IMG/VR virus record: IMGVR_UViG_3300020810_001156
Span: 62,001 to 126,000 of that record
Source: a virus
Direction: 5' to 3' (one strand)
DNA length: 64,000 nucleotides
Part shown: positions 7,627-31,151 of the stretch, piece by piece
Layout: every line of letters begins with the position of its first letter
Position numbering within the stretch: the first letter of the stretch is position 1
Notes under the pieces: model-generated
Told to the model about the DNA's origin: nothing
Seen by the model: the letters and a program-made list of their open reading frames with translations, nothing else
Databases searched by the model: none
Made by a program: the position numbers and the translations under genes

Positions 7627-8040
7627 ATGATTCAATGGTTATGGGAGGGAAACCACATCAAAGATGAGGAAATTCCCGAAAGCGCAGTAGGATTCATCTA
7701 CATGATTGAACACATCCCTACTGGAAAATACTACATAGGTAAGAAAAACCTAAAGGCAAAAAGAACACTTCCCCCACTAAAAGGAAAAAAGAGGAAACGA
7801 AAAGTCATTAAAGAATCTGACTGGAAAAAATATATGTCCTCCAATCAATGGATTAAAGAAGAAGTATCTAATGGTGGTGAGGAAAACTTCAAAAAGAAGA
7901 TACTTCAATTCTGTCATTCAGCAAAAGCACTGACTTATTACGAACTACATTGGCAATTCAAATACAATGTATTAGCTGATGAAAACTCACTCAACGATAA
8001 TCTTTTAGGAAAGTTTTTTAGAAAAGATTTGGAAATCTAA
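7627..8040 (+). CDS. GIY-YIG family endonuclease
   Basis: A 137-residue protein. Residues 22-41 contain the family's first two motifs: GFIYMIEHIPTGKYYIGKK gives the GIY-like (FIY) and YIG (YYIG) strands. A basic segment with KGKKRKRKV follows, then a helix with YMSSNQWIKEE, and later YYELHWQFKYNVL supplies the expected catalytic Glu. GIY-YIG nucleases cut DNA; phage members include Seg-type homing endonucleases and repair or restriction-like nucleases. No DNA-binding repeat is attached, so this is a minimal, stand-alone catalytic domain. It begins six bases after the preceding stop and could be co-transcribed with it. The basic insert between the YIG motif and the helix is typical of phage versions. 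The substrate is unknown. Confidence 0.75.
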   Translation: MIQWLWEGNHIKDEEIPESAVGFIYMIEHIPTGKYYIGKKNLKAKRTLPPLKGKKRKRKVIKESDWKKYMSSNQWIKEEVSNGGEENFKKKILQFCHSAKALTYYELHWQFKYNVLADENSLNDNLLGKFFRKDLEI

Positions 8041-12200: not shown

Positions 12201-12412
12201 GTAATCTTCCTCGTCCTAACTTCTTAGTAATCGATGAAGGATTTGGAACATTAGATAATGAGAACCTTACATCATTGTATATGTTGTTCGCATATCTGAA
12301 AACACAATTTGATTTTGTGATGATTATATCACATATTGATTCAATGAGAGATGTAGTGGATTCTCTTATGGAAATTAAAAAAGTAAATGGATTCAGTAGT
12401 ATTAAATTTTAA
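9281..12412 (+). CDS. Fused SbcD-SbcC (gp47-gp46) recombination nuclease-ATPase
   Basis: A 1043-residue protein that joins two proteins normally encoded separately. Residues 1-330 are an SbcD/Mre11 metallophosphoesterase: DLH (D11, H13), GDIAH (about 48-52), GNHD (about 83-86) and GDIHRR (about 187) supply the metal ligands. Residues about 370-1043 are an SbcC/Rad50 ATPase: Walker A PNASGKSS (about 399-406), long coiled coils on either side of a zinc hook CDIC (717-720), a signature-like CSGMEKF, and Walker B FLVIDEGFGTLD (about 981-992). The complex processes DNA ends for recombination-dependent replication. The single reading frame contains no stop between halves. Both active sites look intact. 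In T4 these are genes 47 and 46, which are adjacent. Confidence 0.9.
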   Translation: MIVEKIYHLADLHIRNLKRHKEYREVFQKFLDNVDRDNIENSIIYLAGDIAHAKTEMSPELIREISWFLTECANRKHTFLITGNHDCNLNNNYRLDVLTPIVENLENDRIHYLRDTGTYPFGNITFVVYSILDKKENWPKAELVEGENKICLFHGPVNLAQTDIGYTVSSNSFTTDMFEGFDMVMLGDIHRRQTLGSPTIAYAGSMIQQNHGEALDKHGYLLWDVESRTFEEVDIPNDYGFYTLDVNDGIVPNVTDMPSKPRLRVRISNTEPSQIKKALTQIKKKYKVQEFTVTRMDTLSKQKTGNFDDKLAIGNVRDVEFQNELIKDYLERQYLADEETVDKIQQINREINTKLVDDDVTPNIQWVPKQFEFSNMFSYGENNLIRFDNAKGMVGIFAPNASGKSSLFDALSFCIFDKTSRTYVAKNILNNRKSNFYCKLHFQIEEVDYYIERRAKLINRGRNLKVDVSFWREDESGIHSLNGEQRRDTNSIIQQYLGTYEDFVLTTLSLQGNNALFIDKSQSERKEILAQFMGVDVFDKLYSHASDENRDNASLIRKFKQDDFTQKLADIGVGLKEKEAEYKLKEIQLNASKDEVEKHNQKLISLNEKIVKVKSDNYSLDELETKKSTLETSLTDLLSQRDTTQSKIDKFEETQIGLEEKIDSYDEDKIDEGLTEYTEVGSELTLIENNIEKHLIKSESLSERKQHLDSHKYNEECDICMENSQTILEQKEKVDGELETIKSELNDLETKHSELVSKRKELAPFESEYTKLKKLKEDENNVSRDINTLINKLSTFETKEIKINGELLQVTQLITDYLENEKQIQKNKELRTEMVSVRAELTSSKDDVDKLNKQLLKLNGEVSSLTNQKKTIEDRIEEVEKLEEQFGLFEYYLNALGKDGVSYELISKALPMIEGEVNNILGQIVEFGLQLEMDGKNINANIVYDDQKWSLEMCSGMEKFISGLAIRIALINVCNLPRPNFLVIDEGFGTLDNENLTSLYMLFAYLKTQFDFVMIISHIDSMRDVVDSLMEIKKVNGFSSIKF

Positions 12413-13879: not shown

Positions 13880-16800
13880 ATGGCCAGAATTAAAAAGTAT
13901 TCACCTGAACAAAATTTATCATCGTTTCAAACTTTAATAGTAGATGAAAATCCCAATTCGGATTATTTTAGAATTACCGAATTTAAAGATACATTTACTG
14001 GTGGTAAAAATGGATTCCTAATAGAGGGTTCAGAATATCTAAAAGAATCTACTGAAATAAAAATTGAGATTTTAGATGTTAATGGAGAACCAATATATTA
14101 TGAACCAGGTAATGGAATCCCAGAATACTATGAAGGTATATCAAAGTTAATAGCTGTTTATATCTATGAAGATACTCCAATCGGATTGGGTAAGATTACT
14201 ATTTTGGGTGAACTAAAGGAGTATGATGATAATGGTGTAAAAAGACAAATTCCATCAGATTGGCGAGGTGCTTATAATGTTAAATGGGAAAGAACTTTTC
14301 AGATTAATAAAAATCTATCAAACGAAGATAGGGTAAGATTTTATCGTAGACCTAAGGTGGGTATTGATGAGATAGTTAAACCAATATTTAACAAAACCCC
14401 ACAAACAATTACTCAAACTGGGCAAGTAGATGGTTTACCTTTAATCCCAACCGAAAATACTCAACTATCTAATTTTTCTTTACCAACATCATATAGATTA
14501 AAAATCACAGATGATACATATTGGACCGGTTCTGCGGTTGGTCAACAAATAGAATTTAGTGGACTAAACTATTCACCAACCATTACTGATATTGTCAACA
14601 AAGATGAAGTATTAGTATCTCCACCATATTCTGAATCGGATTTAGTTAAACCATTTTCATCTCAAAATTATTCGGTATCATTTCCATATGTTGAGGGGGC
14701 AGTTGATTTAGCAACCGCTTTAACTGGTTCATTTGCTAAAATTAACATCACCAATATGAAAACATTTGTTGGTGATGCCGCTAGGGTTAAGGTGTTTAGA
14801 AAATCGGTATCCCAATTAACTGATTATGAGTTCGTACAAGAAATACAATTAGAATCAAACGAATTGTTGAGAGATTTAGAAAGTGTTGAATCAACGGAAA
14901 CTTTCTATGGTAATCTAAGTCAAAACTACATTAATAATTATTGGTTAACATCATCAAATGATTTAGTAACTACATTTAATCAAGATTTTTTATACAATTC
15001 TGTTGAACTTGATAATGGGGCATCTACTCCACAATATTTTTATACATCTCAATCATTGGGTATAACCAATGGTGTTGAATATAATTTATCGTTTAATGTT
15101 AGAAAAAGAACAAACATCTCAGCCGATGATTATTTAAAAGTTTATCTAAGTGGTTCGTTTGGAAATACAACTGTAGCACAAACAATTACAAATATAGGTA
15201 GTTCGAATGAATTATTACAAAAAACTTTAGTAAATGAAAATATAATTGCAGATAATATATCTGGTTCACAATTATATTTTGAAGTAAAAGGTAATGATTG
15301 GTTAATTAATAATATTTCATTAAGAGCAGCAGAAGAAACTTCTTTTTCTCCCGATGAAATTACATTTATACAAAGTGTACCAAAAACATTAGCTGAAGAA
15401 ACATTTGATTTTCGTTTTGAATTTTATGATATAAATAATAATTACATACCTGTATTAGTTGAAGAAACAAAAACATTCACAGGTGGTAACTTAAACTTAT
15501 TTACAAAAGAATTAATTCTTACACCAAATCAATTATATTTTGCATTTGATTCAGCATCGGCACCTGCAAATCCATTACCTCCATTAAACATTTTTATTGA
15601 TGTTGAAAAAAGAGTAATAACTGGTTCGGTAACATTTACATCTGGTGCATATGATGAGTTTGGAAATTTATTATCATCATCACAATATAATGGTGGGGTA
15701 TTTCCTGGTCTATTAACGGACAGAGATAAAGATATTGTAAAATTAAATGTATCTGATTATACTGGTTCAAGAGATGATATTACAGTTCAATATATTGAAT
15801 ATACTGGTGAGGTTGAGGGTGTAACCGATTCATTCGTAATCACTAGAGTTCAAGATGGTAAGGGTGGTGTAAACTTTGAGATTAGGCCTTACAGAGGTAC
15901 AATTATCAAAAACAAAGATGATAAAGAATTAGAAATTCAAGCAATTCGTATTGATGGTATTAATGAAATTATTCTTAAAGATAATTTACCACAAACTGGA
16001 TTTTCCGATGCAAAACTTAGAGTCCTTTCATCATCAATAGATGAAGTAACATTGGAAGAAAGTGGTTCTTATATACTTCTTTCAGAGGCATCATCTACTA
16101 AATTTATTAAAGGATTAAACGCTGGTTTAACTGGTAGTGGTGAAATTGATTATAACGCAAGATTTAATAGAGATTCTATTGATAATGAATTGACCGTATT
16201 CTTAATGGATGGTGAAACTTCTCAATCAATTCTTACATCAATTATTCTTACCGATTTACAAGATGGTTTAGATAGTGGGTTTGTAACATTTGATGCAGAT
16301 GTATTTACTATTAATCCAAGAACACAAACTCAATTTACTCCGCAATTTAGTAGTGTAACGGGTTCTTTTTATAAGAGGGGTACTAAAGCAAATCCAGTAT
16401 CAGCATCGATTGAGATATTCCCATCGATGTCAATCAATAAAGATTTTGTTCCTGAATACTGGATGTATTTTGTATCTCATTCTAAAGATGAAAGTATTGA
16501 GGTAACGGCATATGATGAGAATGGATTCTATTCACCACATGGTGAGTTGGGTTCATATATTGGGTTACCTGCTTCACAAAGCAAACAACTATTGGTAAAC
16601 TTTACTTACACAGAACCAGTAACTTCTGCATCGGTTCAAGTTGACCATATTTTCACCATTGTACCTGAAGGTAAGCCGGGTGATGAAACTGTATTGTTTG
16701 AAGTTAACCCTCAGACTGTAAATCTAAAATCGGATAGTAGAGGTAATGTCAATGATTTTAAACAATCTATAACTGATATTAGTTTAAGACAGGGTTCAAG

Positions 16801-19800
16801 ACGATTAATATTTACGGGTAGTGCAGAACCCGGTACGTTTACAATAGCATCCGAATCTATCAGTTCACAAAACATTGAAGTGGGATTACTACACTTAACT
16901 TCATCATTTGGTACTGATTATACGGCATCATTGATTGTAAGTGAATCATCAAACTTTACACAACTTAGTGGTAGTATTACATATCCATTAGAGATTAGAC
17001 CTTACTTTACATCATCTGTTTACACACAAAGTTTTACTCAAAATTTTACTAAAATATTAGATGGACCTCCTCCAATAGAACTAAACATAGTTCCTCAATC
17101 TGTAACTTTAATTGCTAATGAAGTAGAATTTGTAGGTGATTATTCCAACGCTACAACAACAATTACGGTAAAAGAGGGTTCTGATAATTTAATAAACACC
17201 AGTAGTGGTGCACCTGGTACATTTACTTTAGAATCTATTAATACAACAAACATAACTTCAAATTTAGTTTCGTTGGAAGGTGGAATATCTGCTAGTGTTG
17301 AATTTAGTGAATTTGAATATCCATATGTATCTGCTAGTGTTACATATAATATTAATGTATTTCCATTTTCATTAGGACCTGGTCATGAATATTCATCTTC
17401 TGTTTTTGAAAGAACTCAAAATTTTGTTAAAAGTATTACACCTCCAAACGCTAGAAGTGTTGAGTTAACAGCAACATCAGAAGTAGTTCACTTTGATGGT
17501 GATGGACAGGTAACATCTCCATTAGGTGCAATTACATTAACTGCTGAAGCTTACAATACAACAGGTTCTGTTTATTACGGATTCTTTAGAGATAGTTATG
17601 TGTGGCAACCATATTCACAAACAAATACAGTAACTGTTGGTTCTGGTGATGCAACTGAAGCTGGTGAAACTGTAAGCTGGGAGGTACGAATTAGAGATGG
17701 TGGTTCAACGGCTAATGTAGTAGCTACTGATGCAATTACTATTACTGGTGTACAAGATGGAGCATCAAATTATAATGTACAATTGGATAACCCATCTGTA
17801 ACTCTTACATCTGATGTAGATGGTACAACTCACTTTACTGGTAGTGGTGCTGTAATCAGAGCCGTAAAAGGTGTAACACCGCTAACTCACGTAACTTCAT
17901 ATTCACCATCCGACTATGTTTATGATGAGCAGGGTGTATTTATTGGTAACTTAGGACAATATTCTGCATCGATAGAATCTAAAAGTCCTTATTTAAATCA
18001 AACGGGAATATTCGCTGGAAACCCTGCAACTTTACCTGAAATACCAAATGGTGGTTGGACTTCACCATTTGATAATCCAACTGGAACAATTGTTTACAAA
18101 GTTGATATTGAAAATGGTAGAGCAACTTATTTCTTATCACAATCATTTGCAGTAACATTCGAAGGAGCAACTGGTCCTGGTGTTGTTGTAAGAGGTGAGT
18201 GGAATGCGAATGTTCCATATCTGTTTACTGGAACAAGAAGAGATGCGGTTGTTCAAGAGATTAGTGGTGATACACACTATTGGGCAACAACTGAAGCACT
18301 TATAAACAAACCAGCATATACTGATGGAAGTGCACCATATACCGCACAACCAACATTACCACCTGGCCCACCATATGAAGAAGGTTATGAAGATGCAACA
18401 ACTGGGTGGGAATACTTAGGACAAGAAGATTTCTTCGTAGCTGCTAAGATTGCAATTTTTGAAGAATCATTTGTAGAAAACACAATAAATGTTGGTAAAC
18501 CATCAACTGATTATAGTGTTAATCCACAAATAGCAATTTATGGTGGTGATAGTGAACCTTATATAGCCATCGGACAAGGAACTCAAGGATATGGACAGCA
18601 AGGTATATTTTTGGGTGTAACTGAAGATGGTGGACCTAATGGAACACAAGGAACATCTGGATTATTCTCAATAGAAAATGATACTGGTGATAGATATCTA
18701 AGATGGGATGGTTATGATTTAGAAATAGCAGGTTCGATACAAATCAAAGGAGGTTCTGCCGCAACCACTTCAAGCGTTGATGCTATCAACAACGCAACAG
18801 GTGGATTTATAAACCCATCGGAATATCAATTCGGACCAGGTAGTAGTCCTGATTTCTTCGAATTGGGAGAATTACCAGCAACTCCATCAGTTCCAGGTCT
18901 ATATTTAGGTTCTGATAATTTAGGTTATCACGATGGAACTGATTGGAACGCATTTTTAGATAATAATGGTAACTTTTATTTAGGAGGAGAAGAAGGTGGT
19001 TCATTATCATTCCAACAATCATCGGGTAATTTAAAAGTTTCTGGTATCGTATCAGCATCGGCTGGTATATTTGGTGGATTGGTAATTGATAATACTGGTG
19101 TATTCTTCCCATCAACATATGATGTGGGTAATCAATACTTTGGTGAAAGTGTTGTAACTCAATCTTTATCTTATATTGATTTTACGGATGCTATAACAAA
19201 TCAAGGTGGAGGTAGTAGAGCAATTATTGAAAGAAATACATCAATTTCTGATGTTGGTGATAATGCATATAAACAAATGACGAGAACCGCAGACCCATTT
19301 GGTAGTGGTTCTGCAGTTATGACAGCATTTGGTCTTGTAACCACAACAAACTTAGTAACAGGTTCAGCATCTGGTTCTTTCTTTGGTTCAGATAATGCAC
19401 ACTTTAAAGTAACTCCAAACTTATACGCACTTAATTCATCATATGAAATTGATTTTTGGTGGACTGGTTCATTTAATTTAGATGCTGGTGGTGCCAATGC
19501 CTCTAACTTAGTTTGGCAAGCTGGTACAAATCAAATTATAACATCCGATTCATCTTGGGAAGATGCTATCGGTTCACCTTATATACCAGATGAGTGGTTT
19601 CATGGTAGCCTTGATAGTGGAGCTGACCCAAGAATGAGTGCGTACATTCATGCATATGATGTACCTGTTTTAGGTATTGGTAATATTGTAGATTTGTATA
19701 TTCCAATTGTTCAATATCTAAACTCAACAACTTTACGTTCAACGGAAGATAATAACTATGGTAGTGATATAGAACTACATAACGCAGGAAGCGTAACTTT

Positions 19801-22288
19801 ATATTTAATTGATAGAATGTATGCAGGTGGTGGTGGAGAAGGTGTAAATACAATTAATGCTGGTTCACTTACTGCTGGTAGAGTTGAACCAAGAAGTATA
19901 ACTGGAGAAGCATTAAGAATATCAACATCTGGTTCATTGGATGGACAAACTCTCCCATTCTTATCTATGGGACAGCTTACTGCATCATATGATGCGCAAG
20001 GATTATTTTTCGGATTCCCATCTGGTTCAACTGTTCCAAGAATTTCTATGAGAGGACCTGATGGTAGTTTCTTTAGATATGATGGTAGTGTAGTACAAAT
20101 GAGTTCGGATATTATTGGTGGGGCAATTGAAGGTTCGGATATTGTTGGAGGTACAATCAGCGTACCAGCTACTGGAGTAAGTGCATCATTTAGTGTAAAT
20201 GCTCAGGGAGCATTATCAGCTTCCGATGCAAACATTCAGGGTATTATCAATGCTAATTCTGGTAGAATTGGTTCTTGGGTAATTGATGAAGATACTCAGG
20301 CATTAAGAGATGATAACTCTGAAATCGTATTTGAACCTAATATTCCTGAAATACAATTATTTGATAGTGCAGCTGCTAAGAAAGTAATTATTTCTCCATC
20401 GGATACCTTAACTGGTACGGGTGGAACTACAACTACTGTAGAATGGATAACAGCAGCACCAGACCCCAGTGATGTTAGATACGCTGGTACTGGAAATTCA
20501 AGCGGTATAATATCACAAGCATCCAGTGCTACAACAACACTTGTTCAATTTGGTAGTTACATATCTGGTGGATTAAGTGATTCTGATGATGAGGGAACAG
20601 ATGATGGATTGTTTGGTGTAACTGCTGGTGATTTAGAAGTAACGATAAATGTACCAGAAATGTATTTGATGAAACCAGAAGGTAGTTCGGTATCACATAC
20701 TACATCTTATCCAAATTATAATCCAACTTATAATTCTCAACTACATGGAGGAAGTTCTTTTCCGAAATATGCCTATGCATATCTTTATTTAGAATGTGTA
20801 GATACCGATACCTCTAATAGTGTTTTGGGTAGAACATTAATAGCAGCCGTTAATTCAAGAAGTGATTATACTGCTGGTAATTATTACGTTGGTGATGTTA
20901 ATGACGGTGGTGGTGGGGGAACATCTTTCCCAGGTATAAGTTCAGTAACTGGTGATACTGAAATTACATTAGCATCTGGAAGAAAAATGAGAGCAGACCA
21001 GATATTTAGTGGTGAACCTTTAAAAGTTTGGAGTTGGAACGATAAAATAGATGGTGTAGATGAAATAAATAAATTTGATTCATTTAAATTAGAAAAAGTA
21101 AAAAAACGAAAAGTAGATAAAGTTTATAAAGTAGTTGTTGGTGATAAGGAAGTGAGAGTTTCCGATACTCATGGGTTTTGGTTAGATAATAATGAAGAAG
21201 TAACCGCAGTTGATATTATACCAAATGAAACTAAAGTTTACATAGTAGATGGTGATACTATAAAACTACAAACAGTTGATTCAGTTGAAGAGATTGAAAC
21301 TGATGAGTGGGTATATACATTTGAAGTACCGGGTGTTCATAATTACATATCAAATGATATTTTATCACACAACCCATCAACTTGGACTTATACATCTGCT
21401 ACTACTGTAAGTGGATATGTTGGTTCTCAATCAGCAATAAGCAATCAAACTAAAACAATTAATATATCTCGAGCGGCAACTAATGCAGCATTCAGATATT
21501 CTATACGTTTAGCAGCTGCTTCAGGTAGAGCTATTAATGTAGATTCATCTGGTAACAGTTTAAATAGTTACAAAACACATACTGTTAGGTATGATGCTCT
21601 AAGAGCAGCAGGTCCAATACCAGCTGGATATTTGGGTAGAGCGGGTGGATATCAACCTGATTTATTATTAGATACTAATGTTAGTTTTGCGTTAGCATCT
21701 AACTTTGTTGAAATTAAAGCAGGTGGTATTCAGGTTGTATCAGACCCAGATACATTTGTTAAAATACCTAGACAAGCTACTGGGGGTGGAACAATTTTAG
21801 AAGCAAAAGGTGGAGAATCTATTTTCGAAGCTACGGGAACTGGAATTGGCCAGACTGCAATGACTGTAAAAGGTAATCTTATGCCAGAAAATGGTGATGA
21901 TTTTGATTTCGGTAGTGCTTCGGATATGTGGAAAAATATTTACGGCCATAACCTCAATGGTGTAGATATTGAAAACTTAGCTGTATCATTAGATGATGGT
22001 CCCGGTGCAACTACCACAGATACTAACTCAGTTAATGATAACTATGATAGTTATGTAAAATTGCCTGGTGGTGTTATCTTACAATGGGGACATATTTATG
22101 ATACATCATCACCAAGATATGTTGCATTCCCTACCCAATTCCCAAATGTTATTCATTCGGTAGTTTGTTCTACAAATAGAAATTCTGGTGGTAGTAACGG
22201 GTATAATCATGTTTACAACTACGATAGAAATGGTGTAGAATTAATTTTAGATGGTAATTATGGATTTTGGATTGCAATCGGACATTAA
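13880..22288 (+). CDS. Giant tail fibre / adhesin with embedded Hint domain
   Basis: A 2802-residue protein beginning MARIKKYSPEQN. Most of it is Ser/Thr/Asn-rich beta structure: at least three Ig-like repeats between residues about 950 and 1350 (recurring PxTVxL strands and PGTF turns), and stretches with ITGVQDGAS and FVITRVQDGKG, as in fibre shaft domains. Residues 2355-2498 are a Hint domain, described separately. The C-terminus reads as a fibre tip: a GSASDMWKNIYG trimerisation-type motif (about 2680) and a terminal LPGGVILQWG ... FPTQFPN ... GFWIAIGH block like the Gp53-like tail fibre receptor-binding domain. A late promoter precedes it and a tail-fibre chaperone-like gene follows 11 bases later. 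It is probably the main host-recognition fibre and a candidate substrate for the downstream glycosyltransferases. The N-terminal attachment partner is unknown. Confidence 0.75.
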   Translation: MARIKKYSPEQNLSSFQTLIVDENPNSDYFRITEFKDTFTGGKNGFLIEGSEYLKESTEIKIEILDVNGEPIYYEPGNGIPEYYEGISKLIAVYIYEDTPIGLGKITILGELKEYDDNGVKRQIPSDWRGAYNVKWERTFQINKNLSNEDRVRFYRRPKVGIDEIVKPIFNKTPQTITQTGQVDGLPLIPTENTQLSNFSLPTSYRLKITDDTYWTGSAVGQQIEFSGLNYSPTITDIVNKDEVLVSPPYSESDLVKPFSSQNYSVSFPYVEGAVDLATALTGSFAKINITNMKTFVGDAARVKVFRKSVSQLTDYEFVQEIQLESNELLRDLESVESTETFYGNLSQNYINNYWLTSSNDLVTTFNQDFLYNSVELDNGASTPQYFYTSQSLGITNGVEYNLSFNVRKRTNISADDYLKVYLSGSFGNTTVAQTITNIGSSNELLQKTLVNENIIADNISGSQLYFEVKGNDWLINNISLRAAEETSFSPDEITFIQSVPKTLAEETFDFRFEFYDINNNYIPVLVEETKTFTGGNLNLFTKELILTPNQLYFAFDSASAPANPLPPLNIFIDVEKRVITGSVTFTSGAYDEFGNLLSSSQYNGGVFPGLLTDRDKDIVKLNVSDYTGSRDDITVQYIEYTGEVEGVTDSFVITRVQDGKGGVNFEIRPYRGTIIKNKDDKELEIQAIRIDGINEIILKDNLPQTGFSDAKLRVLSSSIDEVTLEESGSYILLSEASSTKFIKGLNAGLTGSGEIDYNARFNRDSIDNELTVFLMDGETSQSILTSIILTDLQDGLDSGFVTFDADVFTINPRTQTQFTPQFSSVTGSFYKRGTKANPVSASIEIFPSMSINKDFVPEYWMYFVSHSKDESIEVTAYDENGFYSPHGELGSYIGLPASQSKQLLVNFTYTEPVTSASVQVDHIFTIVPEGKPGDETVLFEVNPQTVNLKSDSRGNVNDFKQSITDISLRQGSRRLIFTGSAEPGTFTIASESISSQNIEVGLLHLTSSFGTDYTASLIVSESSNFTQLSGSITYPLEIRPYFTSSVYTQSFTQNFTKILDGPPPIELNIVPQSVTLIANEVEFVGDYSNATTTITVKEGSDNLINTSSGAPGTFTLESINTTNITSNLVSLEGGISASVEFSEFEYPYVSASVTYNINVFPFSLGPGHEYSSSVFERTQNFVKSITPPNARSVELTATSEVVHFDGDGQVTSPLGAITLTAEAYNTTGSVYYGFFRDSYVWQPYSQTNTVTVGSGDATEAGETVSWEVRIRDGGSTANVVATDAITITGVQDGASNYNVQLDNPSVTLTSDVDGTTHFTGSGAVIRAVKGVTPLTHVTSYSPSDYVYDEQGVFIGNLGQYSASIESKSPYLNQTGIFAGNPATLPEIPNGGWTSPFDNPTGTIVYKVDIENGRATYFLSQSFAVTFEGATGPGVVVRGEWNANVPYLFTGTRRDAVVQEISGDTHYWATTEALINKPAYTDGSAPYTAQPTLPPGPPYEEGYEDATTGWEYLGQEDFFVAAKIAIFEESFVENTINVGKPSTDYSVNPQIAIYGGDSEPYIAIGQGTQGYGQQGIFLGVTEDGGPNGTQGTSGLFSIENDTGDRYLRWDGYDLEIAGSIQIKGGSAATTSSVDAINNATGGFINPSEYQFGPGSSPDFFELGELPATPSVPGLYLGSDNLGYHDGTDWNAFLDNNGNFYLGGEEGGSLSFQQSSGNLKVSGIVSASAGIFGGLVIDNTGVFFPSTYDVGNQYFGESVVTQSLSYIDFTDAITNQGGGSRAIIERNTSISDVGDNAYKQMTRTADPFGSGSAVMTAFGLVTTTNLVTGSASGSFFGSDNAHFKVTPNLYALNSSYEIDFWWTGSFNLDAGGANASNLVWQAGTNQIITSDSSWEDAIGSPYIPDEWFHGSLDSGADPRMSAYIHAYDVPVLGIGNIVDLYIPIVQYLNSTTLRSTEDNNYGSDIELHNAGSVTLYLIDRMYAGGGGEGVNTINAGSLTAGRVEPRSITGEALRISTSGSLDGQTLPFLSMGQLTASYDAQGLFFGFPSGSTVPRISMRGPDGSFFRYDGSVVQMSSDIIGGAIEGSDIVGGTISVPATGVSASFSVNAQGALSASDANIQGIINANSGRIGSWVIDEDTQALRDDNSEIVFEPNIPEIQLFDSAAAKKVIISPSDTLTGTGGTTTTVEWITAAPDPSDVRYAGTGNSSGIISQASSATTTLVQFGSYISGGLSDSDDEGTDDGLFGVTAGDLEVTINVPEMYLMKPEGSSVSHTTSYPNYNPTYNSQLHGGSSFPKYAYAYLYLECVDTDTSNSVLGRTLIAAVNSRSDYTAGNYYVGDVNDGGGGGTSFPGISSVTGDTEITLASGRKMRADQIFSGEPLKVWSWNDKIDGVDEINKFDSFKLEKVKKRKVDKVYKVVVGDKEVRVSDTHGFWLDNNEEVTAVDIIPNETKVYIVDGDTIKLQTVDSVEEIETDEWVYTFEVPGVHNYISNDILSHNPSTWTYTSATTVSGYVGSQSAISNQTKTINISRAATNAAFRYSIRLAAASGRAINVDSSGNSLNSYKTHTVRYDALRAAGPIPAGYLGRAGGYQPDLLLDTNVSFALASNFVEIKAGGIQVVSDPDTFVKIPRQATGGGTILEAKGGESIFEATGTGIGQTAMTVKGNLMPENGDDFDFGSASDMWKNIYGHNLNGVDIENLAVSLDDGPGATTTDTNSVNDNYDSYVKLPGGVILQWGHIYDTSSPRYVAFPTQFPNVIHSVVCSTNRNSGGSNGYNHVYNYDRNGVELILDGNYGFWIAIGH
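20942..21373 (+). other. Hint (intein-like / BIL) domain inside the tail fibre
   Basis: Residues 2355-2498 (144 residues) of the fibre. The N-terminal block reads SVTGDTEITLASGRKM, matching the intein/Hint start C-x-T-G-D-T-x-[VI]-x-L except that Cys1 is Ser. A central VSDTHGFWL matches the block-B histidine strand. The C-terminal block reads HNYISNDILSHN and ends in the His-Asn pair needed for Asn cyclisation. The next residue is Pro, not Cys, Ser or Thr. No homing endonuclease is inserted. A Gly-rich linker (NDGGGGGTSF) precedes it. Protein splicing by the normal pathway is not expected; C-terminal cleavage at Asn2498 is conceivable. Confidence 0.85.
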
Positions 22289-22738: not shown

Positions 22739-23011
22739 ATGCAAAACAAAACAGAACAATTGGATTTAAATTTAGTTGCTAAACTAAAAAAAATTCAAGA
22801 AGAACAAAATAATATAGTAATTTCATTAGGACAAATCACAGTACAAAAAAGACAATTATCAAAAAGTATTGAAGATTTGGAAAATAGGGAATTAACATTA
22901 GGTGAAAGTTTGGATAAATCAATTGAAATTCTAAATAAAGAATTAGCTGAAATTGATGGAAAATATCCAAATGGACAAATTGATTTAGAAAAAGGTACAA
23001 TTACTTACTAA
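22739..23011 (+). CDS. Small coiled-coil protein, copy A
   Basis: A 90-residue, highly charged helical protein: residues 10-70 have heptad-like Leu/Ile spacing (LVAKLKKIQEEQNNIVISLG, then LSKSIEDLENRELTLG). It ends in a short beta segment, KYPNGQIDLEKGTITY. The gene at 27591 has the same layout and ends its coiled coil with EYPRGQINLKEGTLTY, so the two are paralogues; both have their own late promoter. Together they bracket the glycosylation cassette. The function is unknown; small coiled-coil virion or assembly proteins are possible. Confidence 0.65.
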   Translation: MQNKTEQLDLNLVAKLKKIQEEQNNIVISLGQITVQKRQLSKSIEDLENRELTLGESLDKSIEILNKELAEIDGKYPNGQIDLEKGTITY

Positions 23012-23015
23012 AATA

Positions 23016-23047
23016 TTTGGTAATTCAAATATTTTTTAGTATATTTG
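23016..23047 (+). promoter_or_regulatory. Host-type (Bacteroidetes sigma-A) promoter of the glycosylation cassette
   Basis: TTTG at 23016-23019, exactly 20 bp, TATATTTG at 23040-23047. It is 36 bases before the ATG at 23084. An inverted repeat AGTGTAT / ATACACT (23054-23060 and 23063-23069) lies just past the expected transcription start and could be an operator or an RNA hairpin. Confidence 0.8.
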
Positions 23048-23083: not shown

Positions 23084-25267
23084 ATGCCTAAAAAGAAAAA
23101 ACTGTTATACATTGCACCCCATCTTTCTACTGGGGGCATGCCACAATATCTTCTCAAACAAATCCAAACATTTGTAAATGATTTTGAAATAGTTGTTGTT
23201 GAATATAATGACCATAGTGGTGGTGTATTTGTAGTTCAAAAAAATCAAATAAATGATTTAGTGAAACTATACTCTTTATATGAAAATAAAAAAGAGTTAT
23301 TAGAGATTATAGATTCCGAAAATCCTGATATAATTCATTTTCACGAAATACCACATCATTTTGTAGATACATCTTTATTAGATATTATTTTTGATAATGA
23401 AAAAAGAAATTATAATATTGTAGTAACCACACATGGTTCACTAACAAATCCAGACGAAATAAGATATCATCCAGATAGATATGTTTTGGTATCTGAGTGG
23501 AGTAGAAGAAAATTTGAACATTTAGGTATTGAAACTGATATTTGGGATTACCCAATTGAAGATTTTAAGTATGATAAAAAATCTGCAAAAAAAGAATTAG
23601 GATTTGAATCCGATTGGAAGCATGTAGTGATGATTGGTTTATTTACTGAGGGTAAAAATCAAGGTGAAATATTTGGGGTAGCTAGACAAATGGAAAAGTA
23701 CAAAATTAAATTTCACTTTGTTGGAAACCAAGCTATGAACTTCGAAAATTATTGGAAACCTTTAATGGATGTTAAACCCGATAATTGTATTATTTGGGGA
23801 GAACGAAATGATGTAGATAAATTTTACAAAGCATCGGATATGTTTTATTTTAGTTCTAAATTAGAATTAAATCCTTTATCGGTTAAAGAAGCATTATCAT
23901 ATGGATTACCATCTATATTCAGAAAACTACATACTTATTTGGATACATATGATGATAATCCACTGGTTACTTATATCGATGATGATTTAAATAATACTAA
24001 ACAAATTATATTAGAAAAGTTACAACCTGATTTTAATGAAGTACCTGGTTGGTTTTCATATTCTGATTTATACGATAAGGTGATTAGGGATTTGCCCGAT
24101 AATTCTAATATAGTTGAGGTTGGTAGTTGGTTAGGTAAATCTACCAATCATATGGCCAACAAAATAAAATATTCAAAAAAGAACTTTAATTTTACAACAG
24201 TTGATACGTTTAAGGGTACAATTGATGAAACTTTACATCAGAGTATTGTAAATAGTTTTGGGGGAGATGTATTTTATGAATTTATAGATAACACAATTTT
24301 ATCAAACAACTATAACAACTTTGAAATTATAAAAGATACATCCGAAAATGCGTCATCCCAATTTCAAAATAACTCATTAGATTTTGTTTTTTTGGATGCG
24401 GGCCACACATATGATGATGTGATTAAAGATATAAAATATTGGTATAAAAAAGTTAAGCCAGGTGGAATTATTGCTGGTGATGATTATGTTAAGGAATTTA
24501 TGGGAGTAGTTGATGCTGTGAGAGAATCGTTTTATTATCAGTTTGAACAAATAAACAAATTTCAATGGGCTAGAAGAAAACCTCGTATTCAAATCAAACA
24601 CCTAATGACTAGGCCAAATGATTTAAGAGAAATGGTATCACAAGCTTCACTTAAACAATTGGAAAGGTATGGAATGGTTTATGAACCAATTGTAAATAAA
24701 CCTTATACTGATTTTGCACCAAAGGAATTTTGTAGAAGGCCTGAACATCTAAGTAAAGATAACAAACCGGGTGAGTTATATCCTGGTGCTGGTTTGGGTT
24801 GGATAACTGGGGGGCATTATGGGTGCTATATGGCTCATAGAGGTGCTTTGGAAACAATGGATAATGATAACTTTGATTATACTCTTATCTTCGAAGCTGA
24901 TGCATTTATTTATACTGGTTTAGAGGAGTTTGTAGATATTGTACATAAAGCTTGTTTCATATCAGAAAGAGATGATGTTACCTACATATCTTTCGCTGAT
25001 AATCCATCTAGAAGTAAAGAAAAAATAGATGAGTTGTTTTCCAAAACGGCACATAATCAAGATTTAGCACATGCTTATTTAATACCAAATCGTAAAAAAC
25101 AATGGTGGTTAGATAGAATCAAAGATTGTAAGTGGGATGTTGCTGATTTGTGGTATAACCACGTATTCTACGAACATCCAGAAAAAAGATATACAACCAA
25201 TAAAGTATATTCAAAGCAAGCAGAAGGATACTCTTTATTAGATTTAAAAAATAAAACTTGGTTATAA
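23084..25267 (+). CDS. Three-domain glycosyltransferase-methyltransferase-glycosyltransferase
   Basis: A 727-residue protein. Residues 1-320 look like a GT4-type (GT-B fold) glycosyltransferase: the N-terminal IAPHLSTGGMPQYL, the central VVMIGLFTEGKNQGE and the SSKLELNPLSVKEALSYGLP donor-site segment with its E-x7-E-like pattern. Residues about 335-490 are a class I SAM methyltransferase of the Methyltransf_24 type: IVEVGSWLGKST (about 343), FVFLDAGHTYDDV (about 434) and KPGGIIAGDDY. Residues about 515-727 resemble a GT25-type LPS glycosyltransferase: GGHYGCYMAHRGALE (about 577) and LIFEADAF (about 601, acidic site EAD rather than the usual EDD). It is first in a tight operon under a host-type promoter. 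The protein may build and methylate a short glycan. Acceptor and donors are unknown. Confidence 0.75.
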   Translation: MPKKKKLLYIAPHLSTGGMPQYLLKQIQTFVNDFEIVVVEYNDHSGGVFVVQKNQINDLVKLYSLYENKKELLEIIDSENPDIIHFHEIPHHFVDTSLLDIIFDNEKRNYNIVVTTHGSLTNPDEIRYHPDRYVLVSEWSRRKFEHLGIETDIWDYPIEDFKYDKKSAKKELGFESDWKHVVMIGLFTEGKNQGEIFGVARQMEKYKIKFHFVGNQAMNFENYWKPLMDVKPDNCIIWGERNDVDKFYKASDMFYFSSKLELNPLSVKEALSYGLPSIFRKLHTYLDTYDDNPLVTYIDDDLNNTKQIILEKLQPDFNEVPGWFSYSDLYDKVIRDLPDNSNIVEVGSWLGKSTNHMANKIKYSKKNFNFTTVDTFKGTIDETLHQSIVNSFGGDVFYEFIDNTILSNNYNNFEIIKDTSENASSQFQNNSLDFVFLDAGHTYDDVIKDIKYWYKKVKPGGIIAGDDYVKEFMGVVDAVRESFYYQFEQINKFQWARRKPRIQIKHLMTRPNDLREMVSQASLKQLERYGMVYEPIVNKPYTDFAPKEFCRRPEHLSKDNKPGELYPGAGLGWITGGHYGCYMAHRGALETMDNDNFDYTLIFEADAFIYTGLEEFVDIVHKACFISERDDVTYISFADNPSRSKEKIDELFSKTAHNQDLAHAYLIPNRKKQWWLDRIKDCKWDVADLWYNHVFYEHPEKRYTTNKVYSKQAEGYSLLDLKNKTWL

Positions 25268-26409
25268 TGATTTACGATAATTTAATAAAATTAGAGGACA
25301 ATATTAGAGAAGTTAGAAATACTTTTATTTTTAATTTTGTTAGAGGTGCTTATATCGAAGTAAAGGGTTCCCAACCAAAAAACTATAAAGTACAATTTAT
25401 AGACCCAAAAACAAATTATATTCATTTCCAAACAGATATCTCAAATGGGCAGTGGGCAAAATGTAGTATTGAATTTTTTGTTAATTGGAATGTTAAAATT
25501 TGGGAAGGTGATATTTTGGTAGAAGATTATCAATATAATGCTGAAAATAAAAGAGTTTATATAGCATTGGATTCGAAGGCATTGGGTGATACTTTGGCTT
25601 GGGTTCCATATGTTGAGGAGTTTGGTAAACTACATAATTGTAAAATGATAACTTCCACATTTCACAATCATATGTTTGAAAAGCAATACCCAAACATAGA
25701 ATTTGTTGAACCGGGTACAAATGTACATAATTTATATGCTATGTATTCATTAGGGTTATTTTATAATGAAGATAATACATACAAAATGTTAAAACATCCA
25801 TCTAATTTTTTAAATGAACCAATGCAGAAAATGGCAACTGATATATTGGGTATGGATTTTAAGGAAGTTAAACCAAAATTAGTGGATAAACAAATTAAAA
25901 AAGATAATAAACTAATCACTATTGCAATTCATGGAACCGCACAAACAAAGTATTGGAATAATCCAAATGGTTGGCAAGATGTTGTAGATTGGTTAAATGA
26001 TAAAGGATACAAAGTAAAATTATTATCCAGAGAAAACGATGGATATATGGGTAACGAGCATCCTAACGGAATCATTAAACACCCAGAAGGAACATTAGAA
26101 TCAGTTATGGATGAGATGAGAAAATCTAAAGCCTTTATTGGTATTGGTAGTGGATTGAGTTGGTTAAGTTGGGCATTGGGAACTAAGACTGTATTGATTA
26201 GTGGATTCTCATACGATTGGGCAGAAATGGAAGATTGTATTAGAATTGGAACACCTGAAGGAAAATGTAGTGGTTGTTTCAATAGATTGAGATTAGATGC
26301 TGGTGATTGGAATTGGTGTCCTGACCACAAAGAAACTAAAAGACAGTTTGAGTGTACTAAATCCATTACATCAGAAATGGTAATCAAAGAATTGGAAAAG
26401 TTTTTATGA
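25267..26409 (+). CDS. Autotransporter-type O-heptosyltransferase (TibC/BAHT-like, GT9-related)
   Basis: A 380-residue protein starting at the ATG overlapping the upstream stop (TAATG); an in-frame TTG at 25258 is disfavoured. The N-terminal region is a beta domain (NTFIFNFVRGAYIEVKG). The GT-B part has YIALDSKALGDTLAWVPYVE, then TIAIHGTAQTKYWNNP and the donor-binding GIGSGLSWLSWALG. The C-terminus carries four Cys (CSGC, WNWC, FEC) placed like the iron-finger of TibC-type bacterial autotransporter heptosyltransferases, which transfer heptose from ADP-heptose to Ser residues of beta-helical surface proteins. The next two genes look like ADP-heptose synthesis enzymes, which supports this donor. 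The acceptor in the phage is not known; the Ser-rich giant fibres are candidates. Confidence 0.8.
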   Translation: MIYDNLIKLEDNIREVRNTFIFNFVRGAYIEVKGSQPKNYKVQFIDPKTNYIHFQTDISNGQWAKCSIEFFVNWNVKIWEGDILVEDYQYNAENKRVYIALDSKALGDTLAWVPYVEEFGKLHNCKMITSTFHNHMFEKQYPNIEFVEPGTNVHNLYAMYSLGLFYNEDNTYKMLKHPSNFLNEPMQKMATDILGMDFKEVKPKLVDKQIKKDNKLITIAIHGTAQTKYWNNPNGWQDVVDWLNDKGYKVKLLSRENDGYMGNEHPNGIIKHPEGTLESVMDEMRKSKAFIGIGSGLSWLSWALGTKTVLISGFSYDWAEMEDCIRIGTPEGKCSGCFNRLRLDAGDWNWCPDHKETKRQFECTKSITSEMVIKELEKFL

Positions 26410-26795
26410 AAAAAGTTTGGATAAATGGATGTTTTGATGTTTTACATCATGCTCATTTTAAAATGATTGAATTTGCATCTACTTTTGGTGATTTATTAGT
26501 AATTGGTATTGATTCTGATAAACGAGTAAAAGAGTTAAAAGGAGAAGATAGACCTTTTCATACGCAAGAAGAGAGAAAGTATAACTTAGAAAGAATTAAA
26601 GGAGTAAAAAAAGTAATAATATTTGATTCATCTCATGCATTGGAAGAAATGATAAAATCATATGAACCTGATGTATTTGTAATTGGTTCTGATTATAAAA
26701 ATAAACCAATAGTTGGTGAACAATATGCAAAATCAATTGTTTACTTTAATCGAATGGAAAATTTTAGTACTACAAAGATATTAAGTAATGGGTAG
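26406..26795 (+). CDS. ADP-heptose synthase adenylyltransferase domain (HldE-C/RfaE2-like)
   Basis: A 129-residue nucleotidyltransferase. NGCFDVLHHAHFKMIEFA (residues 7-24) is the family start; the usual HxGH is HHAH here, with Ala for Gly. Later EDRPFHTQEERKYNLERIKG and VIGSDYKNKPIVGEQY match heptose-1-phosphate adenylyltransferases, and FSTTKIL supplies the C-terminal STT motif. It would join heptose-1-phosphate and ATP to give ADP-heptose. Related glycerol-3-phosphate cytidylyltransferases are the main alternative, but the adjacent kinase favours HldE-like. It overlaps the heptosyltransferase by four bases and the kinase by eight. In enterobacteria this domain is fused to the kinase; here the two are separate and in reverse order. 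Confidence 0.8.
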   Translation: MKKVWINGCFDVLHHAHFKMIEFASTFGDLLVIGIDSDKRVKELKGEDRPFHTQEERKYNLERIKGVKKVIIFDSSHALEEMIKSYEPDVFVIGSDYKNKPIVGEQYAKSIVYFNRMENFSTTKILSNG

Positions 26796-27540
26796 AATAT
26801 TATTAATAGGAGAACAATGTGATGATATCTTTATTTATGGAGATACACCAAGACTTTCACCCGAAGGACCTGCTCCTGTATTTATTCCGAAAAGAGAAGT
26901 TTACAATGGTGGGATGGGAATGAATGTAATGGGTAATTTAATGGCATTGGGGGTTGATGTAGATTTTGAACATCAACAATCTCCAATTACAAAGACAAGG
27001 CACATTCACGAACCATCGAATACCTTACTTCTAAGAATTGATGAGGAATTAAATATTGATAATATAGGTGATAGATTACCTAAGTTAGATTTTTGGGAAT
27101 ATCCAATGGTTGTAGTTTCCGATTACAACAAAGGATTCCTAACCGAAGAAGATATTGCATATATCGGATTCAAGCACCCAAATGTAATTTGTGATACAAA
27201 GAAAAAGTTGGGTGAATGGTGTAAAGATTTGCGATTCATAAAATTAAATCGTTCAGAATTTGAAAATAATAAAGAATTTATTGAAGAAAACGATTGGATT
27301 TTAGAAAAGTTAATAATTACATTAGATAAAGATGGGTGTATGTACAAAGGTACATCATATCCAACTGAACAAGTAGAGATTATGGATATCTCAGGAGCAG
27401 GTGATACTTTTGTAGCAGGATTTGTGAAAGAGTTCTTAGATTCCGAAGATATTCCAAAATCAATACAATTTGGAAATCGTTGTTCAGCACAAGTTGTACA
27501 AAAACGAGGTGTAACAACAATAGATTACGAAAATTTATAA
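26788..27540 (+). CDS. Heptose-7-phosphate kinase-like PfkB protein (HldE-N/RfaE1-like)
   Basis: A 250-residue PfkB-family kinase. It has the RfaE1-type RLSPEGPAPVF segment (typical RxSPEAPVPV), a substrate-binding GGMGMNVMGNLMALG, SDYNKGFL (SDYGKG in HldE), NRSEFE, and the catalytic anion-hole motif DISGAGDTFVAGF near residue 200, whose Asp is the general base. It would phosphorylate heptose-7-phosphate at C1. Typical members have about 310-320 residues, so this is a compact version, with shortened loops in the middle. It closes the cassette and overlaps the adenylyltransferase. No isomerase (GmhA), bisphosphatase (GmhB) or epimerase (HldD) is present in the window, so host enzymes or genes elsewhere must supply those steps. 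Confidence 0.8.
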   Translation: MGRILLIGEQCDDIFIYGDTPRLSPEGPAPVFIPKREVYNGGMGMNVMGNLMALGVDVDFEHQQSPITKTRHIHEPSNTLLLRIDEELNIDNIGDRLPKLDFWEYPMVVVSDYNKGFLTEEDIAYIGFKHPNVICDTKKKLGEWCKDLRFIKLNRSEFENNKEFIEENDWILEKLIITLDKDGCMYKGTSYPTEQVEIMDISGAGDTFVAGFVKEFLDSEDIPKSIQFGNRCSAQVVQKRGVTTIDYENL

Positions 27541-27590: not shown

Positions 27591-27959
27591 ATGGCAAAAG
27601 AAAGCAAACAACAAATTGAATTACTTACTATTGATTTAGGTGAGAGTACAATCGGTTCTATCAAAGAAAAAAATGCAAAGATTAACGATATCGTTAATGC
27701 ATTTGGTCAAATCTATCTTCGTAAAAAAGAATTAAACGAAGAGTTAGAAAAGTTAGAAACAACTTTACAACAAGCTGAAGCTGATTTTAAAGAATCAAAC
27801 GATGCTTTAAGAGAAGAATTAAGTGCATTGGATAAAGAGTATCCAAGAGGACAGATAAACCTTAAAGAAGGTACACTAACATACAACCCAGCTATCAAAG
27901 AGCAGATGAATCAGCAAAACGCAAATTTAACATCTGATAATATAGAAGTGGTAAAGTAA
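27591..27959 (+). CDS. Small coiled-coil protein, copy B
   Basis: A 122-residue, charged helical protein. The central coiled coil (KEKNAKINDIVNAFGQIYL, then KKELNEELEKLETTLQQAEA) ends in EYPRGQINLKEGTLTY, the same terminal beta segment as the gene at 22739, and a further 20-residue tail follows. The two genes are paralogues with separate late promoters, on either side of the glycosylation cassette. This copy is longer at both ends. The function is unknown. Confidence 0.65.
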   Translation: MAKESKQQIELLTIDLGESTIGSIKEKNAKINDIVNAFGQIYLRKKELNEELEKLETTLQQAEADFKESNDALREELSALDKEYPRGQINLKEGTLTYNPAIKEQMNQQNANLTSDNIEVVK

Positions 27960-28004: not shown

Positions 28005-31000
28005 ATGAACGAACTATCTCAATTTTTAGTAGAGAGTATATTAGGAGAAGCGGACAGTGTAGACAACATCGTTGTAGTTTACGCTGGCCGCTTTCAACCT
28101 TTTCATAAAGGTCATTACGCAACCTATTCCCACTTAGTAAAAAAGTTTGGAAAAAACAATGTGTATATCGGTACATCCAACAAAACCGATAATAATAAAT
28201 CCCCATTCAACTTCAAAGAAAAGGTAATGATTATTACCAAAATGTTTGGGATTCCAAAAAACAAAATTGTTCAAGTTAAAAATCCCTATGTACCAACTGA
28301 GGTATTAACGAAGTTTGATAAAGATACAACTGCATTTATTACTGTTGTAGGTAAAAAGGATGCAAGTAGATTAGGTGGTAAGTTTTTTACTCCTTATAAA
28401 GATGGTATCGATTTCGAAGGATACGAAGATAGAGGATATGTTTACATCGCACCCGAAGGTGGTGGGGGTGTAAGTGGAACTGAAGTTCGTAACGGATTAT
28501 CATCAGGTTCAGAAGAAGATAAGAAAAACTTTTTTGTAAAAAGAGCATATCCAAAATTTGATAAAAAGATATTTGATTTCATAACTAACACACTAAATGA
28601 AGAATTTAGTATTTCAAAAGAAATAGTAGAAAATTGGTTAATAGCTGAAGGTAGTGATTTAATCAAAGAGGCATCTAAAGTTTTAGGTTCACAAGAAGTT
28701 GATGATGGTCCAAACTTTTTATTTCCATCGTATGCAATATTCGATAGAGTTTCCCAAAAAAGAGCAGAACAAATTGGATACACTGTTTTATCTCAGATTA
28801 TGAGTGCGGAACTTACTGATATTGACCCACATCCAATTTATCCTGATGGGCCTGTAAAAGCAGTAACTCCATTTCCAGCTGGTGTAGCTGGTAAAACAAC
28901 TGCAACTAACCAAAAGGATTACTATGGTTCAATTGCATATGATAAATGGTGGAAGCATGTAACTCGAACCGCTGGTTTAGTTGGATATTCTTTAATTGAT
29001 TACATTGATTTGGAGGTTGATAGAAAAGAATCAACTAAAGATTTATCACAAGAAAAGAAACCAGTTAGTAACACACTCAAAGAAGATATCAAACTTCCAG
29101 TAAATGTGGGTGATACAATCTTAACGGGTAGATTTAAAAATAAAAAGACAGTTGTTAAAACTATTGGTAAAGATGAACATGGGATGCCAACAATCAATGG
29201 TAGAAAAGTTGTAAACTTTAGAATCTTAAAAGAAGGTGTACAAGTTCAATTGGATGAAATCCCAATGGCTGATTTACAAAAGATTGACCAATATGCAGAT
29301 AAACAGCTTAATCCAGTTGATGTAGTTTTAACCGATAAGCATTTCTTTGATAGATTAACTGACCCAAGAAATAAAAAACCAATATCACCTGCAGAACTAA
29401 TTGGATTCTTTAAAAGATTAGGAAAGAAGAAAAAAGATTTCTTAAACTTCTTACAATTGTACGGACAAATTGTAGCAAAGGATAATAGAAGTAAAATCAA
29501 CATTCCATTTATGAAACAAGCGAATAAAGTAATCGCTAAGACCGTAATGAGAAAAGATGATTTTAAAACACCAGACCCAGAATATAAATTCGAAGGTGTA
29601 AATGATTTCTTCTATATGGATTTCAAAAAATGGGCACATAAAAATAGAGCAAAAATCAATAAAATGGATTATGAAGATAAGATTGAATTCTTATCAGATA
29701 AATACATGAAAGACCACGGAAAGTGGCATAGGGGAGAAAGTCCTGATTATATTGGCGCTGAGTTAGTTCACTTATTGGTAAAAGATAGAATTATCAAAGA
29801 AGGATTGGCAATGGGTTATCCAGACCAAAAATGGTTAGATGACCACGAAAAGAAATTAAAAAAATTAAGAAAGAAATTTGATAAAGAAAAACTTCAGTAT
29901 AATGAACCATTCGCATTAGGTGGTGGTATTACTGAATCATTGATTTTGGAAGGAGGTGCTTATGGACATATGAATCACCCATTCGATACCGAAATCAATT
30001 TAACTTTTGGACAATTAAAAGATATCGTAAATAGAGCTTTAGAGGGTAATTTAGAACTCACTAGAGAAAAGACCGATGGTCAAGCATTAGCAGTTAGTTG
30101 GAGAGATGGGAGATTAGTTGCAGCGAGAAATAAAGGACATTTGAAAAACAAAGGAGCTGGAGCATTAGATATCAATGGTGTAGCGATGAAGTTTGCTGGT
30201 AGAGGAGAATTGGAAAAGGCGTATAACTTCGCAATGAAAGATTTAACGAAGGCAATATCTAAGTTGAGTGAAAAGCAGAGAGATAAGATTTTCAAAGGAG
30301 GAGCATGTTTTATGAATTTGGAGGTAATCTATCCAACTTCTGTTAATGTAATACCTTACGGACAAGCACTATTAGTATTCCACGGAACAATGGAATACAA
30401 TGAGGATGGTATCGCAATTGGTGAGAACCAAGATGCAGCGAGAATGTTGGCAGGTATGATTAAACAAATCAATGCAGATGTTCAATCCGCTTACACAATC
30501 CAAGGCCCACCAGTAGTTCAATTACCTAAATCCAAAAACCTTTCTTCACTCAAAGGAAAGTATAATGGACAAATCTCAAAACTACAATCTAAATTTAAGT
30601 TAAAAGATAACGATGGAATCGCTGATTATCATCAAGCATTTTGGATGGATTTTGTGAATAAGAAATCACCATCTAAGTTAGATAACAAAACTCTAATGGG
30701 ATTAGTAAAGAGATGGGCATTCTATGATAAATCATTCAGATTAGATAATAAGAATATTACTGATGAAAAAACATTAGAATGGGCAAAGGGAATTGATAAG
30801 AATGACCACGCTAAAATGGCTAAAGATAACATCAGACCATTTGAAGATATCTTCTTAGGTTTAGGAGCAGAAGTACTTTCATTTATGAGTTCAGCACTAA
30901 CTGTTAATCCTGATAGTGCAGTTAGAGATATGAAAAAGAGATTAGACCAAACCATTAAAGATGTAAGAAAATCAGGTGACCCTAAGAAAGTAAAAAAACT

Positions 31001-31151
31001 AAAATTAGAATTGGAAAGATTAAATTCTATCGGAGGAAAGAATAAAATTGTTCCAAACGAAGGAATCGTATTTGTGTATGGTGGGAAAACTTTCAAACTA
31101 ACGGGCACATTCGCACCTCTCAATCAGATTCTTGGGTTATTTTACGAATAG
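28005..31151 (+). CDS. NMNAT-like nucleotidyltransferase fused to a ligase-like KxDG domain
   Basis: A 1048-residue protein. Residues 22-200 form a nucleotidyltransferase of the NMNAT/NadM type: GRFQPFHKGH (28-37, H34-x-G-H37) and GVSGTEVRNGL (about 154-164, the second conserved motif). A middle region contains an alpha-helical block with DKHFFDRLTDPRNKKPISP. Residues about 645-1048 read as a covalent nucleotidyltransferase (RNA/DNA ligase superfamily): EKTDGQALAVSW with K689-x-D-G (motif I), ARNKGHLKNKG, MNLEVIYPT (motif III-like), NEGIVF (E1019, motif IV) and KLTG near the end (motif V-like). It ends there, with no OB-fold domain. A linker reads ESLILEGGAYGHMNHPFD. It is the first gene before the packaging block and has a consensus late promoter. 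NAD or nucleic-acid end chemistry is likely, but the substrate is unknown. Confidence 0.75.
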   Translation: MNELSQFLVESILGEADSVDNIVVVYAGRFQPFHKGHYATYSHLVKKFGKNNVYIGTSNKTDNNKSPFNFKEKVMIITKMFGIPKNKIVQVKNPYVPTEVLTKFDKDTTAFITVVGKKDASRLGGKFFTPYKDGIDFEGYEDRGYVYIAPEGGGGVSGTEVRNGLSSGSEEDKKNFFVKRAYPKFDKKIFDFITNTLNEEFSISKEIVENWLIAEGSDLIKEASKVLGSQEVDDGPNFLFPSYAIFDRVSQKRAEQIGYTVLSQIMSAELTDIDPHPIYPDGPVKAVTPFPAGVAGKTTATNQKDYYGSIAYDKWWKHVTRTAGLVGYSLIDYIDLEVDRKESTKDLSQEKKPVSNTLKEDIKLPVNVGDTILTGRFKNKKTVVKTIGKDEHGMPTINGRKVVNFRILKEGVQVQLDEIPMADLQKIDQYADKQLNPVDVVLTDKHFFDRLTDPRNKKPISPAELIGFFKRLGKKKKDFLNFLQLYGQIVAKDNRSKINIPFMKQANKVIAKTVMRKDDFKTPDPEYKFEGVNDFFYMDFKKWAHKNRAKINKMDYEDKIEFLSDKYMKDHGKWHRGESPDYIGAELVHLLVKDRIIKEGLAMGYPDQKWLDDHEKKLKKLRKKFDKEKLQYNEPFALGGGITESLILEGGAYGHMNHPFDTEINLTFGQLKDIVNRALEGNLELTREKTDGQALAVSWRDGRLVAARNKGHLKNKGAGALDINGVAMKFAGRGELEKAYNFAMKDLTKAISKLSEKQRDKIFKGGACFMNLEVIYPTSVNVIPYGQALLVFHGTMEYNEDGIAIGENQDAARMLAGMIKQINADVQSAYTIQGPPVVQLPKSKNLSSLKGKYNGQISKLQSKFKLKDNDGIADYHQAFWMDFVNKKSPSKLDNKTLMGLVKRWAFYDKSFRLDNKNITDEKTLEWAKGIDKNDHAKMAKDNIRPFEDIFLGLGAEVLSFMSSALTVNPDSAVRDMKKRLDQTIKDVRKSGDPKKVKKLKLELERLNSIGGKNKIVPNEGIVFVYGGKTFKLTGTFAPLNQILGLFYE

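Follow-up and report, generated by a model that had tools for sequence, protein, structure and literature searches.

Which protein would a phage glycosylate with an enzyme of the TibC type, and with which sugar? The question is raised by a four-gene cassette in a virus record of 252,603 bases (33% G+C), of which bases 62001-126000 make up the window (64,000 nucleotides; its numbering is used below unless stated otherwise). The earlier note had described four tightly overlapping genes behind a host-type promoter, which would encode a TibC/BAHT-like enzyme with a four-Cys iron finger as well as a kinase and an adenylyltransferase that resemble the halves of HldE but are encoded separately and in the opposite order. 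These elements were confirmed, and the cassette and its flanks comprise:

13880-22288, + strand: tail-fibre protein, 2802 aa, Gp53-like C-terminus; upstream of the cassette, a position conserved in close relatives; not preferred as acceptor
22739-23011, + strand: small coiled-coil protein in the upstream flank, paralogue of 27591-27959
23016-23047, + strand: promoter TTTG-N20-TATATTTG, Bacteroidota type, 36 bases 5' of gene 1
23084-25267, + strand: gene 1, 727 aa; GT4 at about residues 1-320, Methyltransf_24 at 344-468 and a weak GT25-like match at 574-628 (family searches)
25267-26409, + strand: predicted TibC-like protein O-glycosyltransferase, 380 aa from the ATG, with N-terminal beta-barrel, GT-B core and iron finger (family, alignment, model); a TTG at 25258 is a possible alternative upstream start
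25588-25590, + strand: codon of D108, equivalent to the TibC catalytic base Asp110 (alignment; PMC4358343), invariant in the viral alignment
26266-26355, + strand: iron-finger region, with C334, C337, C351 and C363 corresponding to TibC C339, C342, C358 and C370 (alignment; all invariant)
26406-26795, + strand: HldE-C-like heptose-1-phosphate adenylyltransferase, 129 aa (TIGR02199)
26788-27540, + strand: HldE-N-like heptose-7-phosphate kinase, 250 aa, a short form that cyanophages also have; SPEGPAP and GAGDTF motifs
27591-27959, + strand: small coiled-coil protein in the other flank, paralogue of 22739-23011

The product of 25267-26409 scored 272 bits against TIGR04414 (Aah/TibC; curated cut-off 200). 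TibC was its only sequence match in the PDB (34% identity over 327 aligned residues) and the best fold match of its AlphaFold model (pLDDT 92; TM 0.84-0.85, compared with ~0.5 for WaaC). When the residues required in TibC (PMC4358343) were mapped onto the phage enzyme, the four Cys aligned exactly, and the equivalents of Asp110, Lys230, Trp305 and these Cys were invariant in 46 of 46 viral sequences, that of Thr226 being kept in 45. The thumb-tip pair, Phe-Val in TibC, is Tyr-Met in 44-45 of the 46, the thumb being modeled as a short helix with no clear hairpin, and the position of TibC Pro300 is taken by Gly or Ser in viral-type enzymes. Arg286 of TibC, which contacts adenine, is required there and is reported as strongly conserved among family members (PMC4358343), gives way to Val280 in the phage enzyme; 44 of the 46 viral sequences have Val, Leu or Ile at this position, while Arg is kept in 60 of 62 sequences from loci L120-L178. 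Because this residue is not kept, we class the predicted enzyme, on sequence grounds, in a subfamily of its own within the TIGR04414 fold family and not as an autotransporter heptosyltransferase.

Phylogeny gave the same picture. In a maximum-likelihood tree with sampled autotransporter-type enzymes, a fully supported branch parts these enzymes and TibC from the viral enzymes and two small bacterial groups; FastTree on all rows reproduced the split, with L128 and L175 on the viral side. The bacterial sequences beside the viral clade come from methanotroph chromosomes and from other proteobacterial and Bacteroidota contigs. With a separate viral clade and the loss of Arg286, the earlier assignment of the enzyme to the autotransporter class had to be given up. 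At least 514 viral stretches, a lower bound, encode relatives of the enzyme. One viral protein in the BFVD library is already auto-named Aah/TibC, and a search of open-licence papers turned up no work on phage enzymes of the TibC type.

The two Hld-like genes bear on the sugar. Of the NCBIfam models, TIGR02199 fits the adenylyltransferase best, at 103 bits, under its equivalog cut-off of 181.5 and ahead of the glycerol-3-phosphate cytidylyltransferase model at 71; the HxGH motif, intact in most relatives, reads HHAH in the phage copy. The kinase likewise scored best with TIGR02198 (102 bits, under the equivalog cut-off of 345; 250 aa against a 315-position model), and its structural model (pLDDT 89), for which the alignment held loci from the window and viral contigs only, matched HldA best among PDB folds, then other PfkB kinases. 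Both proteins thus align better as HldE halves than as unrelated sugar or glycerol enzymes. The earlier proposal that the cassette completes ADP-heptose synthesis stands as far as the HldE halves are concerned, but the phage would not make the donor unaided: GmhA and GmhB, sought elsewhere in its genome, were not found, and the host must therefore supply the early steps. Among 25 records searched, GmhA was confined to the 373 kb group, and a GmhB-type phosphatase (TIGR01656) was found in none of 30 records, the phage included. HldD may not be needed, as TibC itself uses ADP-D,D-heptose (PMC4358343).

Of 92 distinct loci whose downstream sequence was long enough, 25 have the HldE pair directly after the enzyme, indicating that donor-making genes are optional; HldE-C occurs in 7 of 30 viral records with the enzyme, and most enzyme-bearing viruses lack the split HldE genes, which are already known from cyanophages. 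Viral records of 218-373 kb (L091-L094) carry a GmhA-like gene (188 bits) together with a TibC-like enzyme; HldE-C is present too in the one of 373 kb, so that viruses of this group may cover a larger share of donor synthesis themselves. In addition, the donor could differ from that of TibC, since Arg286 is replaced in almost all viral-type enzymes.

As to the acceptor, the first sign came from distant relatives of the enzyme, beside which giant lysine-free, Ser/Gly/Thr-rich ORFs turned out to be long Gly-X-Ser (GXS) arrays, e.g. GTSGSSGTSG. In 5,496 triplets from 17 viral loci, Thr or Ser fills 89% of X positions and Ser 71% of Y positions, compared with Ser at 6% of Y positions in Gly-Pro-X control arrays. 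The phage's own arrays have Ser at 57% of Y and Ser or Thr at 96% of X positions, and the main candidate acceptor begins just outside the window:

genome 126219-139991 (window numbering 64219-77991), 219 bases past the window end: candidate acceptor, 4590-aa ORF with a collagen-like GXS region at residues 3049-4390

Pfam Collagen (PF01391) matched this ORF at 1.1e-106 (349 bits; gathering score 27.2), and there are 27 Collagen matches in the phage record; the array of Microcystis phage Mel-JY01 matched at 1.4e-66 and those of two methanotroph neighbours at 9.6e-13 and 2.5e-8. A second large ORF (genome 142082-153682) combines a Peptidase_S74 fibre chaperone with sparser GXX arrays. The GXS gene lies ~38 kb from the cassette, and GXS sequences occur within 10 kb of a stand-alone enzyme in only 4 of 52 loci.

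Enzyme and arrays nevertheless co-occur in both directions, with p values that are rough guides because the contigs are related and fragmentary. A six-triplet GXS pattern was present in 13 of 14 enzyme-bearing viral records >100 kb, which include two pairs of near-copies, and in none of the 9 Gly-Pro-X records used as controls (50-198 kb; p=1.2e-5). Conversely, the enzyme was encoded by 19 of 41 viral contigs picked by the GXS array alone (>=35 kb, eight-triplet pattern, chosen blind to the enzyme) and by 0 of 25 Gly-Pro-X contigs (p=2e-5). Pfam Collagen matched 11 of 12 enzyme-bearing viral records not chosen by GXS but none of the 5 capsid relatives >100 kb that lack the enzyme (p=0.001). 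A weak test among 34 capsid relatives found the GXS pattern in 2 of the 4 that carry the enzyme, as opposed to 1 of the 30 that do not (p=0.03). Two exceptions were seen: a 148 kb record (G039) has GXS arrays without the enzyme, and one of 176 kb (G013) has the enzyme without arrays.

The pairing extends to bacteria. In bacterial loci, runs of at least five GX[ST] triplets flank 16 of 23 viral-type enzyme genes but none of the 57 of autotransporter type (p=9e-12). Often, in methanotrophs and gammaproteobacteria, 8-180 bases separate the GXS gene from that of the enzyme, and the GXS product encoded there starts with a signal-peptide or lipobox-like stretch. The canonical acceptor repeat TIGR04415 was absent from 15 of 15 viral records, whereas an E. 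coli control matched. These sequence patterns suggest that the viral branch acts on the virus's own collagen-like GXS fibres and not on bacterial autotransporters; that enzymes of this clade go together with GXS collagen-like proteins seems to be a new finding.

The remaining gene of the cassette may elaborate the glycan. A GT4 domain of the gene 1 type is fused to the TibC-like domain in three relatives (L047, L051, L059), and GT2, methyltransferase or FkbM domains are fused to it in others. With its GT4-methyltransferase-GT25-like architecture, gene 1 would extend and methylate the glycan after the enzyme has set the first sugar on Ser. Close relatives share the gene order fibre, coiled coil, gene 1, enzyme, HldE-C, HldE-N, coiled coil, cytidylyltransferase, although some have lost the kinase or both Hld genes. 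The paralogous coiled-coil pair brackets the cassette in the phage and its relatives, possibly marking an insertion boundary. The conserved downstream neighbour (28005-31151) encodes a protein of 1048 aa whose N-terminal domain resembles nicotinamide-nucleotide adenylyltransferase. Residues ~2356-2498 of the upstream fibre protein resemble an Intein/Hint domain (PF14890, 31 bits, under cut-off), for which classical splicing is doubtful because Pro follows the C-terminal HN. Further upstream, a single ORF (9281-12412) joins an SbcD-like phosphoesterase part to a following SbcC/Rad50-like ATPase part.

The promoter and the head genes point to the likely host. About 18 near-identical intergenic copies of the cassette promoter occur on the + strand across the phage genome, and the pattern has 23 + strand matches in total, compared with 2.2 expected from shuffled sequence, so that the host-type label holds. 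The repeated form reads TTTGG...TTTTTCGTATATTTG, with examples at 8028, 8299 and 23016. Terminase, portal and major head protein match T4-type families, the records nearest to the head protein being an uncultured phage (56%), Flavobacterium phages vB_FspM_immuto (52%) and Microcystis phage Mel-JY01 (52%). The recurrent promoter type and the capsid kinship together suggest, rather than prove, a Bacteroidota host.

Based on these results, we propose, with a probability of about 0.62, that the TibC-like enzyme O-glycosylates Ser of the phage's GXS fibres, that the HldE pair aids donor supply and that gene 1 elaborates the product. The enzyme would transfer a sugar to Ser in the collagen-like Gly-X-Ser triplets of giant proteins of the tail-fibre type. 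In the phage this sugar would most likely be D-glycero-D-manno-heptose from ADP-heptose, and the 4590-aa ORF would be modified within its array. The kinase and adenylyltransferase would boost the last donor steps from host heptose phosphate, the GmhA and GmhB steps or substitutes for them coming from the host. The glycan would be carried on virions, where it might stiffen or stabilize proline-poor collagen-like fibres, shield them or serve in adhesion.

Other readings were weighed against this one. The earlier note had looked for the acceptor among Ser-rich proteins of the window, namely the 2802-aa fibre, whose gene adjoins the cassette in close relatives, and a 4828-aa protein with SSSW repeats. 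NCBIfam and Pfam scans led us to reject both as candidates, with no acceptor repeat (TIGR04415) and no Collagen match in either, and Ser makes up just 10-12% of each. The SSSW repeats do exist, in 17 copies, but they sit within ...YLSSSWS.F.YNE.KC.RD... repeats, a context that is neither GXS nor strand-loop-strand, and no curated beta-helix family was found in the 4828-aa protein, for which a beta-helix had been claimed. As the cross-phage association points to GXS arrays instead, the in-window proposal is probably wrong and an acceptor of this kind very improbable. Somewhat less remote, though still unlikely, is that the cassette alters the host surface (LPS, S-layer or a surface protein), e.g. 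to block other phages, with the GXS link a by-product of lineage. In cyanophage P-SSM2, the genes for split HldE and phosphoheptose isomerase lie close to those for tail fibres; rfaE and glycosyltransferase genes of pelagiphages have been interpreted as serving host-surface change (PMC7029224); LPS synthesis commonly involves GT25 and GT4 domains; and the cassette has its own host-type promoter. Yet the enzyme has the fold of the protein-modifying TibC and not a WaaC-like one, and the GXS pairing holds in the reverse test and recurs in unrelated bacterial chromosomes beside secreted proteins.

A third reading keeps the GXS acceptor and changes the donor, with the HldE-like pair making another activated sugar or serving another pathway. 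The clade-wide loss of Arg286 and the lack of HldE genes in most members speak for it; however, the pair directly adjoins the enzyme in the phage as in the 25 loci counted above, the kinase keeps an HldE-type RLSPE motif along with its HldA-like fold, and GmhA is present at 188 bits in the 373 kb relative, and we regard this variant as quite unlikely. Heptosylation of GXS fibres is thus the reading we prefer. Its broader form, to which we give somewhat less than even odds, is a widespread phage and bacterial system in which a TibC-type enzyme would decorate the Y-position Ser of Gly-X-Ser and fused glycosyltransferases and methyltransferases would build a methylated oligosaccharide, replacing proline/hydroxyproline in fibre stability.

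If the proposal is true, GXS proteins would be the first acceptor class outside autotransporters for the TibC-type family, hundreds of viral TibC-like genes would be explained, and the long collagen-like fibres of aquatic phages, which are poor in proline, would be tied to a pathway dedicated to their glycosylation. The proposal likewise calls into question the usual view that phages carry heptose and glycosyltransferase genes to change host LPS. GXS glycosylation is directly testable, because Mel-JY01, an isolated phage, encodes both the enzyme and a GXS protein, whose gene precedes that of the enzyme in record PP395634.

Parts of the system have known counterparts, namely TIGR04414 enzymes, cyanophage split HldE and mimivirus collagen glycosylation (PMC9614988). 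Cyanophages P-SSM2 and S-CAM3 resemble the phage in having a split HldE, adenylyltransferase then kinase; both also have phosphoheptose isomerase, and neither showed a TibC-like enzyme by tblastn at E 1e-5. Mimivirus offers a parallel in which the virus encodes proline-low collagen-like proteins together with the enzyme that glycosylates them; its L230 hydroxylates Lys and adds Glc (PMC9614988), whereas the phage enzyme is predicted to act on Ser with no hydroxylase step. With TibC/AAH (TIGR04414, BAHT; PMC4358343), a family whose members form dodecameric rings via thumb and iron finger, the phage-type enzymes share the fold, the catalytic Asp, the phosphate-binding Lys and Thr, Trp305, the four Cys, Phe368 and a hydrophobic pair at the thumb position, albeit of other residues. 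Unlike TibC/AAH, they form a separate clade without Arg286 and Pro300, are virus-borne with no autotransporter partner, frequently form fusions with further glycosyltransferase or methyltransferase domains and pair with collagen-like GXS proteins.
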